From IMG/VR virus record IMGVR_UViG_3300005548_000041, positions 1 through 21,435 of that record: a DNA stretch of 21,435 bases. One strand, 5' to 3'. Under the pieces are notes generated by a model that saw only the letters and a program-made list of their open reading frames with translations, was not told the origin of the DNA and did not search any database. How positions within the stretch are numbered: position 1 is the first letter of the stretch; every line of letters starts with the position of its first letter. Of this stretch, positions 601-21,435 are shown one piece after another. A program made the position numbers and the translations under genes. The DNA comes from a virus.

Positions 601-812
601 CCCGTGTCCCGCTCGACATCGCTGCCGCTATCGGTGAGGTCAACAAGGCCACCATCCGGCAGTGGGTGAACCGCGGCGTGATCAACCGCTACACAGACGG
701 CTACGAGGTTGCCGAGATCCTGCTGTGGGTCGATCAGGAACGGTCGCAGTGGGCCGTCGACATGCGGCAGGGGCTCACTCCGCGAGCAGCTTGTATAAGC
801 GAGCTCGGCTGA
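597..812 (+). CDS. Small helix-turn-helix DNA-binding protein
   Basis: This 71-residue protein starts at a GTG that overlaps the upstream stop by 4 nt. Residues about 4-32 (VPLDIAAAIGEVNKATIRQW, then a NRGVI wing-like turn) resemble a MerR/excisionase-type helix-turn-helix with the usual Q-W-x-x-R-G pattern. A short helical tail follows. Such small winged-helix proteins in phages act as regulators, excisionases or terminase-like DNA binders; nothing here decides between them. The open frame extends upstream to 471 inside the zinc-ribbon gene, but that part is a shadow reading of it. The last 38 nt overlap, convergently, the 3' end of the minus-strand HTH gene ending at 775. Confidence 0.7.
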   Translation: MTRVPLDIAAAIGEVNKATIRQWVNRGVINRYTDGYEVAEILLWVDQERSQWAVDMRQGLTPRAACISELG

Positions 813-1011
813 TCCCCAACTCGGCCGCCAGGTCAGCTGCTGTGCGGCCGGGTTTCATCCGACGGATAGCTTCTCGTCGCATCTCGCCGATCACCCGTTC
901 GGCTTCCCACAGCCGGTGTGATTCCTCGCCTAGCGCCGCGACCTGCTCGATGTCGGTGAGGTGGGCGACGCGTTGACGGACGGAGGTGAGGTAGGTCTCT
1001 GCTTCGGTCAT
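775..1011 (-). CDS. Small HTH regulator with N-terminal coiled coil, leftward
   Basis: This 78-residue protein is the only convincing leftward gene in the window. The first 50 residues are a charged helix (EAETYLTSVRQRVAHL... with regular leucine/valine spacing) likely to dimerise. The last 25 residues form a helix-turn-helix (TAADLAAELGISRARLYKLL) similar to those of resolvase or sigma-region-4 type. The ATG at 1011-1009 lies only six bases past a -10-like TAACTT with a TTGACA -35, so the mRNA is probably leaderless, a common arrangement in actinobacteria. The protein could regulate its own divergent promoter region, where the -35 hexamers form a symmetric palindrome; this is inference. Its 3' end overlaps the rightward HTH gene by 38 nt. 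No phage-repressor family can be named from sequence alone. Confidence 0.75.
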   Translation of the reverse strand: MTEAETYLTSVRQRVAHLTDIEQVAALGEESHRLWEAERVIGEMRREAIRRMKPGRTAADLAAELGISRARLYKLLAE

Positions 1012-2179: not shown

Positions 2180-2473
2180 ATGCCCTGGTCCACCAGCACC
2201 CACAAGGGCAGCACAAGGGCCAGTAGGGCACTACGAGACCACGTCCTCCGCATGTACCCACACTGCTACCTCCACTACCCAGGATGCACAGGGACCAGCA
2301 CAGAAGACGACCACGTCATACCCCTATACGCAGGCGGCACAGACCACATAGCCAACCACCGCGGCGCATGCCACCACTGCCACGCAATCAAGTCAGCCCG
2401 CGAGGGGCACGCAGCCCGACCAACACGCAAACGGAAACCCGAACAACACCCAGGCATCCGTCACACACCGTGA
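2180..2473 (+). CDS. HNH endonuclease, packaging-associated
   Basis: The 97-residue protein has the zinc-stabilised HNH layout. A CYLHYPGC pair at residues about 29-36 provides one CxxC-like arm, EDDHVIPL (about 42-49) carries the first catalytic/metal His, and NHRGACHHCHAIKSA (about 59-73) holds the Asn/His and second cysteine knuckle. The C-terminus is a basic Arg/Lys tail. In HK97-like phages, an HNH protein encoded next to the terminase helps TerL/TerS cut DNA at cos ends; the gene order here (HNH, then TerS, TerL, portal) matches that. The start ATG is only 3 nt past the upstream stop and lacks a strong Shine-Dalgarno site, so translation probably depends on coupling. No intron is visible, so it is unlikely to be a homing enzyme. 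Confidence 0.88.
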   Translation: MPWSTSTHKGSTRASRALRDHVLRMYPHCYLHYPGCTGTSTEDDHVIPLYAGGTDHIANHRGACHHCHAIKSAREGHAARPTRKRKPEQHPGIRHTP

Positions 2474-19313: not shown

Positions 19314-19661
19314 ATGCCATTCGGACCGAGACCCGAGCATGGTTCTATCCGATCCCTCGATCGGTTCACTGTGCGGCTGCTCGTGCTGAGCATCGTTCTC
19401 CTGATGCTGGTCGGCAGCCTCGCCGAGGCGTACATCTCTGAACGTAGGTCCTCCCAGACTGCGGCGTCGATCGCTGCGCTATGCCCGTTCTGGCGTGACC
19501 TCGCGCAACTACCGCTGTCCGCTACCTCGACAAAACTCGCGTTCACGATCATCGCCGACACCCGGATCGCCTACGCCAAACAGAGCTGCGAGAAGACCAC
19601 CGGGGCACTACCGGAGCCCGATCCGCGGGTAAAGCCGCTCCTCCCGGCCGGGGTGAAGTGA
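19314..19661 (+). CDS. Single-TM protein with exported Cys-pair domain
   Basis: This 115-residue protein was assigned to ATG 19314 because GGAAGG (19300-19305) lies 8 nt away; ATG 19296 would be without ribosome site. The N-terminus is basic, followed by one TM helix (residues about 24-44, VRLLVLSIVLLMLVGSLAEA). The C-terminal 70 residues, predicted outside, contain ALCPFWRDLAQLPLS and QSCEKTTGALPEPDPRVKPL, with two Cys that may form a disulfide. I recall similar short LCPFWRDLA proteins just upstream of lysins in phages of mycolic-acid actinobacteria. A role in lysis is inferred from context only. The stop overlaps the endolysin start. Confidence 0.75.
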   Translation: MPFGPRPEHGSIRSLDRFTVRLLVLSIVLLMLVGSLAEAYISERRSSQTAASIAALCPFWRDLAQLPLSATSTKLAFTIIADTRIAYAKQSCEKTTGALPEPDPRVKPLLPAGVK

Positions 19662-20401
19662 TGCCCGAATACGCGCCCGGCGCTGTCTACAGCCTGTTCG
19701 CCCTGATCCAGAAGGGCATTCCATCCGCCGGACTGGCCGGCATCATGGGTGACCCCGCCACACATACCTACGGCTATCACCGGTCCCGGAACTGGAACCG
19801 GCTACACAGCTCGCAAGGTTTTAGCGACTACTCGATCCGGTTGTCCCGGGATCTCGGCGGCGACGGGGACGCATGCAGCGCCCTGGACATCTCGCTCAGC
19901 CCGGACCTGATGAAAGCGGTCACCAACCGGCTGTTGCACGCAGCGAAAGCGAAGGACCCGCGGCTGAGTGCGCTGCGAGAGTTCTGCGGCACCCTCGATG
20001 GACGCAACACCTACCCGTGGGACCTGCCGACGAACTCCTCCGAGGGCGTCAACACGTGGGACTCCTCCCACCTCAGCCACGTGCACCTGTCGCTGTACCG
20101 CGACGCTGCCACCAACGCCGCCGCCCTCGCCCCGATCGCCGCAGTCATCACGACTCCGATCGAGACCACGTCCGGTAGCGGTACCCCCATCACGCCCGAG
20201 GAGGACGACATGACCCCAGTACAGGCCCAGATGCTCGCCTACGTCTACAACGAGATCCGCAGCGCGGTCGCCGTCGGACAACGCGACTTCGCCTCGACGG
20301 TGAAGGCGTCCTTGGGCACCGCGCAGAGCAATTTCAACCAGATCAAGGTGACCCAGGCGCAAATCGCCGCGGTCCAGGACGCAATGAAAGCGGGCAAGTA
20401 A
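19661..20401 (+). CDS. lysA: Endolysin, M15-like peptidase with C-terminal helical domain
   Basis: This 246-residue protein cuts peptidoglycan. Residues about 1-165 form the enzyme: GYHRSRNWNRLHS (H40), GDACSALDIS (D76) and SSHLSHVHLSL (H140, H142). These fit the zinc ligands of a VanY/M15-type peptidase, although the spacing differs from classical SxHxxGxAxD. A Ser/Thr/Pro linker (TTPIETTSGSGTPITPEE) leads to residues 184-246, a helical domain probably binding the wall or forming oligomers. An in-frame ATG with perfect AGGAGG begins that domain. GTG 19658 is an alternative start one codon earlier. No amidase or glycosidase motif is seen. Confidence 0.85.
   Translation: MPEYAPGAVYSLFALIQKGIPSAGLAGIMGDPATHTYGYHRSRNWNRLHSSQGFSDYSIRLSRDLGGDGDACSALDISLSPDLMKAVTNRLLHAAKAKDPRLSALREFCGTLDGRNTYPWDLPTNSSEGVNTWDSSHLSHVHLSLYRDAATNAAALAPIAAVITTPIETTSGSGTPITPEEDDMTPVQAQMLAYVYNEIRSAVAVGQRDFASTVKASLGTAQSNFNQIKVTQAQIAAVQDAMKAGK
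20199..20212 (+). promoter_or_regulatory. Internal ribosome site and start within endolysin gene
   Basis: AGGAGG (20199-20204) is a full complement of the 16S 3' end, five bases before ATG 20210-20212 and in the endolysin frame (residue 184). Use of this start would give a separate 63-residue C-terminal domain (20210-20401) beginning MTPVQAQMLAYVYNEI. The encoded residues here are E-E-D-D, in a linker where codon choice is flexible. Confidence 0.6.
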
Positions 20402-20832
20402 TGGCCGAGCACAGCATCGATAACGTCATCGAGGATGTGGAGAAGACCGTCTCGAAGTTCGCCCGGGCGATCGCCTTGAAGCGGGCCGGCATCACCGCTG
20501 TCGTAGGTGCCTTGCTGCAACTGGGTGTCCTTTTCGACGTGATCACACCGGACGAGTCATCGCACGTGACCGGGCTCATTCAGATCGGCCTCGCGACCCT
20601 CACCATGATCGGCGCGGGCCTCTGGATTCACAAAGGCGCGACGCCGGCGGACATCGCACTGGACCCGAAGGATTCCGACGGAGTGCCGCTGATCCGCGTC
20701 GACGCCGCCGCTCAGATTGCTACCCAGGCGGCGGCCGCGGCCGTGGCGGCACCGCCACCGAGCCCGGTCGACTTGGCCAGCCTCGACGCTGAAGCCGCCC
20801 AACTGTTGGGCAATCACAACCCACCGGTCTAG
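20401..20832 (+). CDS. Holin, two TM segments
   Basis: This 143-residue protein follows the endolysin with TAATG overlap. The first 28 residues are a charged helix. TM1 lies at about residues 30-48 (GITAVVGALLQLGVLFDVI) and TM2 at about 57-76 (VTGLIQIGLATLTMIGAGLW); a short polar D-E-S-S-H turn separates them. The tail is Ala/Pro-rich. Two TM helices next to an endolysin gene fit a class II holin of actinophages, which forms membrane holes that trigger lysis. The strong terminator 18 nt downstream ends the late operon. It is more convincing as the holin than the 4-TM protein at 18620, but pairing of both is possible. Confidence 0.82.
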   Translation: MAEHSIDNVIEDVEKTVSKFARAIALKRAGITAVVGALLQLGVLFDVITPDESSHVTGLIQIGLATLTMIGAGLWIHKGATPADIALDPKDSDGVPLIRVDAAAQIATQAAAAAVAAPPPSPVDLASLDAEAAQLLGNHNPPV

Positions 20833-20850
20833 CCGCTTCCGTTCTCCCTA

Positions 20851-20878
20851 CCTGCCCGGAATACCGTGGCGGGTTTTT
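20851..20878 (+). terminator. Strong intrinsic terminator after lysis genes
   Basis: CCTGCC-CGG (20851-20859), tetraloop AATA (20860-20863) and CCG-T-GGCGGG (20864-20873) form a nine-pair stem with one bulged T and one G-T pair, followed by five T (20874-20878). It is the best terminator in the window and probably the end of the main late transcript. The next ATG starts only 24 nt later. Confidence 0.85.
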
Positions 20879-20902
20879 CATGCGCCCCAAAGGAGAAACC
20901 TG

Positions 20903-21435
20903 ATGACCAGCAACGTCCGCACCTTCATCACGAAGCGAGCCCTGGTCGCTTCCGCTGCGGCTCTGGCCATCGTGGGCCTGGTCGGCTTCGGTGTCGCCGC
21001 AGGCCCATCGGGCAACGCTGTCACCTTGGCCGACATCCCGCAGGTCGCACCGTCTTGCGCCCCGCTAGCCGTCTCGACCCCAAGCCTGAGCGCGGACGGC
21101 AGCTCCTACGGGTTCGACGTTGCTGGTACCCATTGCGTCGTCCCGGCCCCGCCGACTCCGGCACCGAGCACCGTGGTCACGACCGTCACGCCGACCGCAA
21201 CGCCCACCAGCACCGCGCCGACCTCGAGCGTCACGCCGACGCCCACCCCGACGCCTACCGTCGTTCCGGCAGGTTTCCCGAACGCGGGCACCACCGGTGT
21301 GCCGGCGGGCACGGTGCTCACGAAACGCGGCGGCTTCAAGGTCACCGCATCCAACTCGACCTACCAAAACCTGGAAATCGACGGCTGCGTGACCTTCGGC
21401 TCGGGCGTGGCCAACGTCGTTTTCCGCAACGTCCT
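20903..21435 (+). CDS. Secreted right-handed beta-helix-like protein, 3' truncated by window edge
   Basis: ATG 20903 is preceded by AAAGGAG (20889-20895), and the frame stays open to the edge (177 residues). Residues about 1-33 are a Sec signal peptide: basic start (RTFITKRA) and a hydrophobic ALVASAAALAIVGLVGFGVA core. A small domain with two cysteines (PSCAPLAV, GTHCVVPA) is followed by a long Thr/Pro linker (VTPTATPTSTAP, VTPTPTPTPTVV). Then FPNAGTTGVPAGTVLT begins a region with GFKVTASNSTYQNLEIDGCV, resembling the first coils of parallel beta-helix proteins of the pectate-lyase fold. I recall similar proteins in actinophages. The cargo is exported from the host cell or carried on virions; function unknown. 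Confidence 0.75.
   Translation, partial: MTSNVRTFITKRALVASAAALAIVGLVGFGVAAGPSGNAVTLADIPQVAPSCAPLAVSTPSLSADGSSYGFDVAGTHCVVPAPPTPAPSTVVTTVTPTATPTSTAPTSSVTPTPTPTPTVVPAGFPNAGTTGVPAGTVLTKRGGFKVTASNSTYQNLEIDGCVTFGSGVANVVFRNV

Follow-up and report, generated by a model that had tools for sequence, protein, structure and literature searches.

A signal-bearing beta-helix gene near the late-gene end of an actinophage contig and its viral and bacterial relatives

The right end of IMG/VR virus record IMGVR_UViG_3300005548_000041 (the window, meaning the whole stretch of 21,435 nucleotides that was analysed) raises the question of what a phage would do with a beta-helix protein that begins like an exported one. 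A preliminary description had placed such a gene just past a terminator and had offered a depolymerase, a receptor-masking factor and a lysogenic-conversion cargo as possible roles. We compared the gene with its relatives in viruses and bacteria, with the predicted structure of a complete homologue and with known systems.

The window gene and the phage that carries it

The gene is real and runs open to the contig end, with its start at ATG 20903 rather than at position 20851 as previously described (Table 1). If it ended as in the complete homologue L004, it would comprise ~378 codons. Upstream of it, the hairpin at 20850-20874 folds at -16.4 kcal/mol (z -3.63), is followed by UUUUU and is kept in the sister phage L005; a consensus terminator scan of the window did not pick it up, probably because the stem is bulged. 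The N-terminus passes a simple signal rule of our own, which is also satisfied by 58 of the 355 other genes on related contigs, and the last 54 residues of the window are 91% identical to the L004 helix. Both the signal-bearing beta-helix protein past a terminator and the Thr/Pro linker, which had been proposed from the letters of the sequence, were borne out in this way.

Table 1 Features around the beta-helix gene at the right end of the window
Feature	Position	Strand	Basis or remark
Putative endolysin	19658..20401	+	HxH-type residues by eye
Small membrane-type protein	20401..20832	+	holin-like by position and hydrophobic stretches only
Intrinsic terminator, hairpin with one bulge and U tract	20850..20878 (hairpin 20850-20874, U tract 20874-20878)	+	fold
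Ribosome-binding site AAAGGAG	20889..20895	+	7 nt ahead of ATG; unchanged in sister
Beta-helix gene, open to contig end	20903..21435	+	ATG 20903; 177 full codons
Export-type signal	20903..21019	+	R6/K11/R12, hydrophobic core 13-33, possible cleavage after A39; own rule
Segment C52 to C78	21056..21136	+	two cysteines ahead of helix
Pro/Thr/Ser-rich linker, residues 81-118	21143..21256	+	translated sequence
Beta-helix start, GFPNAGTTGVPAGT cap and first coils	21272..21435	+	similarity to L004; L004 model

The beta-helix gene lies just beyond the probable lysis genes. The putative endolysins of the window and of L004 had no Pfam match and only chance-level PDB sequence matches, and the small membrane-type protein matched neither Pfam nor PHROG. 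A UUCUCC upstream of the terminator is complementary to GGAGAA in the ribosome-binding region (20842-20897; second fold, z -1.82), and this weakly predicted pairing could hide the site in read-through transcripts. The putative endolysin gene itself contains an in-frame AGGAGG-ACGAC-ATG (window 20173-20227, ATG at 20210), and the 55-bp stretch around this ATG is 89-91% identical to the lysin-type gene of a phage that is unrelated elsewhere. A scan of 178,344 amino acids recovered the acidic-Met motif encoded there only from the four copies of this gene, in two phage types; L003 and L004 are near-copies, as are the window and L005. Possibly, ATG 20210 is an internal start for a free 63-residue C-terminal product.

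Judged by its terminase, the window phage is an actinophage: the best of the matches listed was Microbacterium phage Footloose (55.4%), followed by Bifidobacterium and Mycobacterium phages. For the capsid, the best matches listed were Mycobacterium and Propionibacterium phages, and most of the 121 matching records were Pseudomonas phages. L004 gave one weak match to a Thermobifida phage.

The sister contig is 95.4% identical to the window over 10.35 kb, and both stop within the part that encodes the helix. Exact copies of the terminal 59 nt of the window (21377-21435) and of the terminal 120 nt of the sister occur in the otherwise unrelated phage L004/L007; window and sister agree exactly over their final 25 nt only. 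At the DNA level, similarity between the window and L004 is confined to the helix region and 55 bp of the putative endolysin gene; the two endolysin proteins show a further weak match (36.6% over 112 residues). From these overlaps we infer that the assembler halted at a node common to several phages. That the gene is broken at a shared stretch therefore points to a helix cassette moving between phages, with leader and linker differing. The same exact matches, and the ending of both contigs inside the shared stretch, would also be expected of an assembly chimera or of stray DNA at the contig end. However, the sister has the same start, ribosome-binding site, terminator and N-terminal half, and the complete L004 gene has further genes after it and a tape-measure-like gene upstream on its contig. 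We regard this artefact as very improbable, and a chimera could touch only the last stretch of the window.

The predicted fold and the viral family

The complete gene of L004 (L004:7783-8874) encodes 363 amino acids, with a signal-type start, a two-cysteine stretch, a Thr/Pro linker and a helix of ~250 residues; no cell-wall anchor was seen by eye in the complete protein. The sister is 98% identical to its helix over 96 residues. The preliminary description had called for the entire helix and its catalytic residues, and this homologue supplied the former: AlphaFold, given 29 viral rows, predicted an all-beta full helix for the L004 domain (pLDDT 90.7, pTM 0.91). The fold is thus predicted on L004 to be a right-handed parallel beta-helix, of which the window has the first coils only. 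As for the latter, the helix alignment holds a single invariant residue, His136 (29/29 rows), which is residue 244 of the L004 protein, and no catalytic set could be named from the 29 rows.

Searches with sequence alone placed the domain loosely. For Pfam PF13229 (Beta_helix), the window gave no match and L004 reached 21.5 bits against a curated cut-off of 25.9, and 15 of 29 relatives matched at E<=0.01. One PDB sequence search was without match and the other gave two at E 0.12 and 0.39; NCBIfam matches lay far below the cut-offs. Neither NCBIfam nor PDB gave a sequence match to an enzyme of characterised activity.

With the L004 model, the best solved structures in Foldseek were tailspikes (two matches at E<=0.001, best 4.9e-4). 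The best 50 entries listed by VIA-align (Z 20.6 to 18.3) were mostly polysaccharide-acting beta-helices. The epimerases AlgE4 and AlgE6 and the lyases 6kfn and 8jaz had the top Z of this tied list (AlgE6: Z 20.6, 2.3 A over 207), at identities of 14-16% for the epimerases and 11-15% for the lyases. Binders and non-enzymes (PfbA, Vag8, pertactin, NosD) are also in it, and function is not given by the fold alone. Alginate epimerases carry a DPHE-type catalytic motif. A mannuronan C5-epimerase was considered because DPHN in L004 resembled it and was rejected, since of the residues preceding His136 the Asp is kept in 5 and the Pro in 6 of the 29 rows. Superposition of the motif was likewise set aside: the aligned ranges begin at model residue 14 and AlgE6 residue 138, and the motifs probably do not overlap.

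A profile built from four distant members retrieved 36 viral loci, three of them a near-identical set; a single-sequence scan of genome contigs gave 1 relative. We read the frames of L004 and 33 further viral loci, of which L020 is without an N-terminus. Among 33 readable viral N-termini, which include the near-copies L023/24, L031/32, L037/38 and L039/40 and exclude window and sister, 25 passed the signal rule, compared to 58 of 355 other genes on the same contigs. All 25 have a P/T/S fraction of at least 0.40 ahead of the helix. The eight that failed the rule (L031, L032, L039, L040, L043, L045, L046, L051) have fractions of at most 0.30, a measure that fails in L039/L040, and L045/L046 are ambiguous, with a hydrophobic stretch behind an acidic start. 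The same helix domain therefore occurs in viruses both with and without an export-type signal.

Cysteines follow this division. Of the 23 distinct rows with a signal, 22 have at least two cysteines in the 115 residues ahead of the helix, compared to none of the 6 others (Fisher 1.5e-5 for 29 distinct rows, which are related to one another). These cysteines played no part in the signal rule, and they fit folding outside the cell. Within the helix, a cysteine pair (L004 helix residues 39 and 61) was present in 15/23 signal-bearing rows versus 0/6 (p 0.006). Taken as a whole, helix cysteines (2.4 against 0.96 per 100 aa) are frequent in signal-less rows as well, with 2 to 10 in the helix; helix cysteines are therefore no export marker by themselves.

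A tblastn search with the window, L004 (protein and helix) and the helices of L052, L027 and L026 against the 50,697 phage records of INPHARED returned no convincing member, the L004 helix giving two matches (E 0.7 and 3) with the threshold relaxed to E 10, and a megablast of the window gave no match. Isolate collections may miss the family.

Viral neighbourhoods and bacterial relatives

Lysin-type domains (Amidase_2, GH25, Rv2525c-like) are encoded 0.1-1.9 kb upstream of the beta-helix gene in six viral contigs (L021, L026, L028, L042, L047, L052), and in L022 a GH25 gene lies directly downstream. Seven of nine lysin candidates tested matched Pfam, those of the window and L004 being the two that did not; one of the seven matches is a VanY downstream of the signal-less L039. 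An integrase lies 3-6 kb away in L022 (by Pfam), L042 (by BLAST) and L026 (by BLAST, partial), and in L042 and L026 the helix gene follows the lysin and precedes the integrase.

Virion genes are neighbours as well. Among signal-bearing members, capsid genes are found 0.8-1.5 kb upstream in L033 and L041, and tail-type genes nearby in L021, L022 and L036. Eight contigs (L023, L024, L025, L030, L034, L037, L038, L049), near-copies included, share an opposite-strand gene of one BLAST cluster, and the one tested, from L023, matches a portal PHROG. Among signal-less members, L039 and L043 have virion-type neighbours, L051 has head-decoration-type matches alongside, and L031/L032 lie between a primase and a tail gene (in L032, primase upstream and tail gene downstream). 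Two simple rules of position were dropped on these grounds. A lysis-linked position does not hold for all members, given that signal-bearing ones are also near capsid and tail genes. Neither does a clean split into exported members outside and unexported members inside the structural genes, with capsid and tail genes near signal-bearing members and L031/L032 beside a primase. The capsid and tail neighbours of signal-bearing members therefore weaken the argument from position.

Relatives also occur in bacteria. The L004 helix matched 32 plasmid records, 27 of them from Sinorhizobium. In a sample of 197 genomes from the class to which a Micromonosporaceae MAG belongs, 43 carry the family; the MAG had been chosen for its match and is counted among the 43. 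In 30 of 40 genomes tested, the distance from a member to a Wzy_C gene is at most 10 kb, compared to 0.65 expected at random positions; it is at most 5 kb in 20 and at most 15 kb in 32. Of 73 individual genes, 44 are no farther than 15 kb away. Forty neighbouring genes were also hand-picked at ten strong loci and two plasmid loci. Among the 25 of 41 Pfam families listed, glycosyltransferase families and Wzy_C were commonest, with four members each; next came TPP_enzyme_C (3), other glycosyltransferases (3) and nucleotide-sugar families (2), and flippase families were also present among the 40 neighbours. The signal rule was passed by 22 of 32 bacterial rows with a readable upstream frame. One rhizobial relative (L013:2437-4827), annotated as a calcium-binding protein, has its helix joined to RTX-like repeats, recognised by eye, which suggests type I export in place of a signal peptide.

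Viral and bacterial rows are interleaved. A tree of 69 rows requires 9 changes between virus and host labels, at least 5 of them forced by well-supported branches. In it L004, the row of window type, groups with a row from bacteria at 90/94, and both of these branches are long. The mixed labels therefore indicate several transfers, which may have run in either direction.

What the protein may do, and precedents for it

Because of the bacterial context, the fold, the export-type features and the one invariant His, we consider a protein acting on exopolysaccharide (EPS) most likely. The reading we prefer, and to which we give about an even chance, is that of an exported bacterial-type beta-helix whose target is EPS and which an actinophage carries, close to its late-gene end, as cargo that is not part of the virion. 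The preliminary suggestions of a depolymerase and of conversion cargo point in this direction, considering the signal, linkers and cysteines, the lysin-type genes near the helix gene in seven contigs, the integrases at 3-6 kb in three and the bacterial Wzy genes; the activity is the part that we infer. The comparisons spoke neither for nor against the decoy or receptor-masking role of the preliminary description.

Two other readings have to be weighed against this one. Tailspike depolymerases of phages are virion components. Those of HK620, Sf6 and Dettilon and a phage-type K1 capsule lyase share the same right-handed parallel beta-helix, and the protein could be a tail spike or fibre whose hydrophobic N-terminus is an anchor, or is simply tolerated, and which ends up in the virion. 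The match of the predicted fold to tailspikes is consistent with this, as are virion-gene neighbours of signal-less and some signal-bearing members and the matches of 2/29 and 1/29 relatives to phrog_7458 and phrog_2234 (tail spike). Unlike tailspikes, however, most members have a signal-type N-terminus, a linker and pre-helix cysteines, which would be needless for assembly in the cytoplasm, and bacterial copies of the same design mostly pass the signal rule. A tailspike would be expected without an export signal, and the window N-terminus is signal-type by our own rule. We judge a virion role for the window protein unlikely.

Alternatively, the product could be a surface protein of lysogenic conversion, such as an adhesin, a lectin or a receptor mask, which attaches to glycan and leaves it uncut. 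The adhesin PfbA has the same fold, the terminator sets the gene apart from the preceding genes, as in morons, and an integrase is near the gene in L022 and L042, with a partial one in L026. Against a pure binder, the invariant His and the place beside EPS polymerase genes suggest glycan turnover, and the complete L004 protein has no anchor visible by eye. We consider this reading unlikely.

For the preferred EPS-acting cargo we envisage a course in which export, disulfides, catalysis, substrate, timing and benefit are all proposals based on sequence and context. The protein would be translated from its own ribosome-binding site, on a read-through or a separate transcript, and its signal would direct export by Sec. 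Disulfides and the Thr/Pro linker would suit it to the cell exterior, where the helix groove may bind, cut or trim host Wzy-type EPS, as the bacterial WceF does with stewartan. Progeny could thereby escape trapping and neighbouring cells lose cover; where the gene is near an integrase, the surface of the lysogen might be changed. A wider scenario, which we put forward tentatively and think more likely wrong than right in its full extent, is that unrelated phages have repeatedly swapped a Wzy-cluster EPS-trimming protein with bacteria and kept it as an exported cargo cassette, in some cases near lysis or integration genes. The helix would be traded among phages with leader and linker differing, and slime would be remodelled from infected cells or lysogens, not by the virion; other phages would use the signal-less domain as a virion part. 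If true, phages would alter the matrix that surrounds actinobacteria, whether in infection or in lysogeny, and bacterial members of the family could be tested for a role in EPS length control.

Precedents exist for both halves of the preferred reading, by analogy and as far as the accessible parts of the sources describe them. WceF of Pantoea stewartii is a Tat-exported beta-helix encoded in an EPS cluster with wzc, and its mutants make larger stewartan (PMC7949094). It demonstrates that an exported beta-helix encoded in an EPS cluster can cut EPS, and the bacterial relatives resemble it in gene position and export-type start (30/40 near Wzy_C, 22/32 passing the signal rule). Compared by description, WceF differs in its Tat signal, its 736 residues, its trimeric state and its bacterial origin, whereas here a helix of ~250 residues occurs in phages. 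For the phage role, PghP and LevP of Bacillus phage phiNIT1 are soluble, apparently host-acquired enzymes against host surface polymers; PghP is described as non-structural, made when infection ends and freed at lysis, and as exposing neighbouring cells to phage (PMC6966330, PMC9863714). As phage-encoded, apparently host-acquired soluble enzymes, they offer a precedent. They differ in host and polymer, and their activity was measured whereas that of the present protein is a prediction; LevP is, in addition, described with another fold (PMC6966330, PMC9863714). The term 'signal peptide' is absent from these two review texts. WceF may thus serve as a model for the bacterial role and PghP/LevP for the phage role.

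In one review, phage polysaccharide depolymerases are treated mainly as virion parts, namely tail spikes, with the phiNIT1 enzymes as an exception (PMC6966330), and viral CAZymes including a pectate lyase PL3 have been described from mangrove soil (PMC6460857). The available portion of PMC9862828 contains nothing on the beta-helix family. Among what were mostly titles and abstract openings, which make weak evidence, we found no published description of a phage protein with a signal peptide and a beta-helix or depolymerase domain. Soluble phage polymer-degrading enzymes and EPS-cluster beta-helices are already known; relative to the literature found in this form, an actinophage that encodes a signal-bearing member of the present family, with signal-less kin in other viruses, appears new.

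Several further genes were observed in passing. Near its left end, the window encodes a small helix-turn-helix protein (775-1011, minus strand; matches just below Pfam cut-offs) and an HNH endonuclease (2180-2473, plus strand; PF01844). One viral contig carries a tandem pair of beta-helix family genes (L027:5362-7676). In L044, an NAD-dependent epimerase/dehydratase type protein (L044:2527-3408; PF01370) is encoded upstream of the beta-helix gene. Directly before the beta-helix gene of L025 lies a GDSL lipase/acylhydrolase-type gene (L025:4633-5457) with a signal-like start by eye, whose product is possibly a second exported enzyme.
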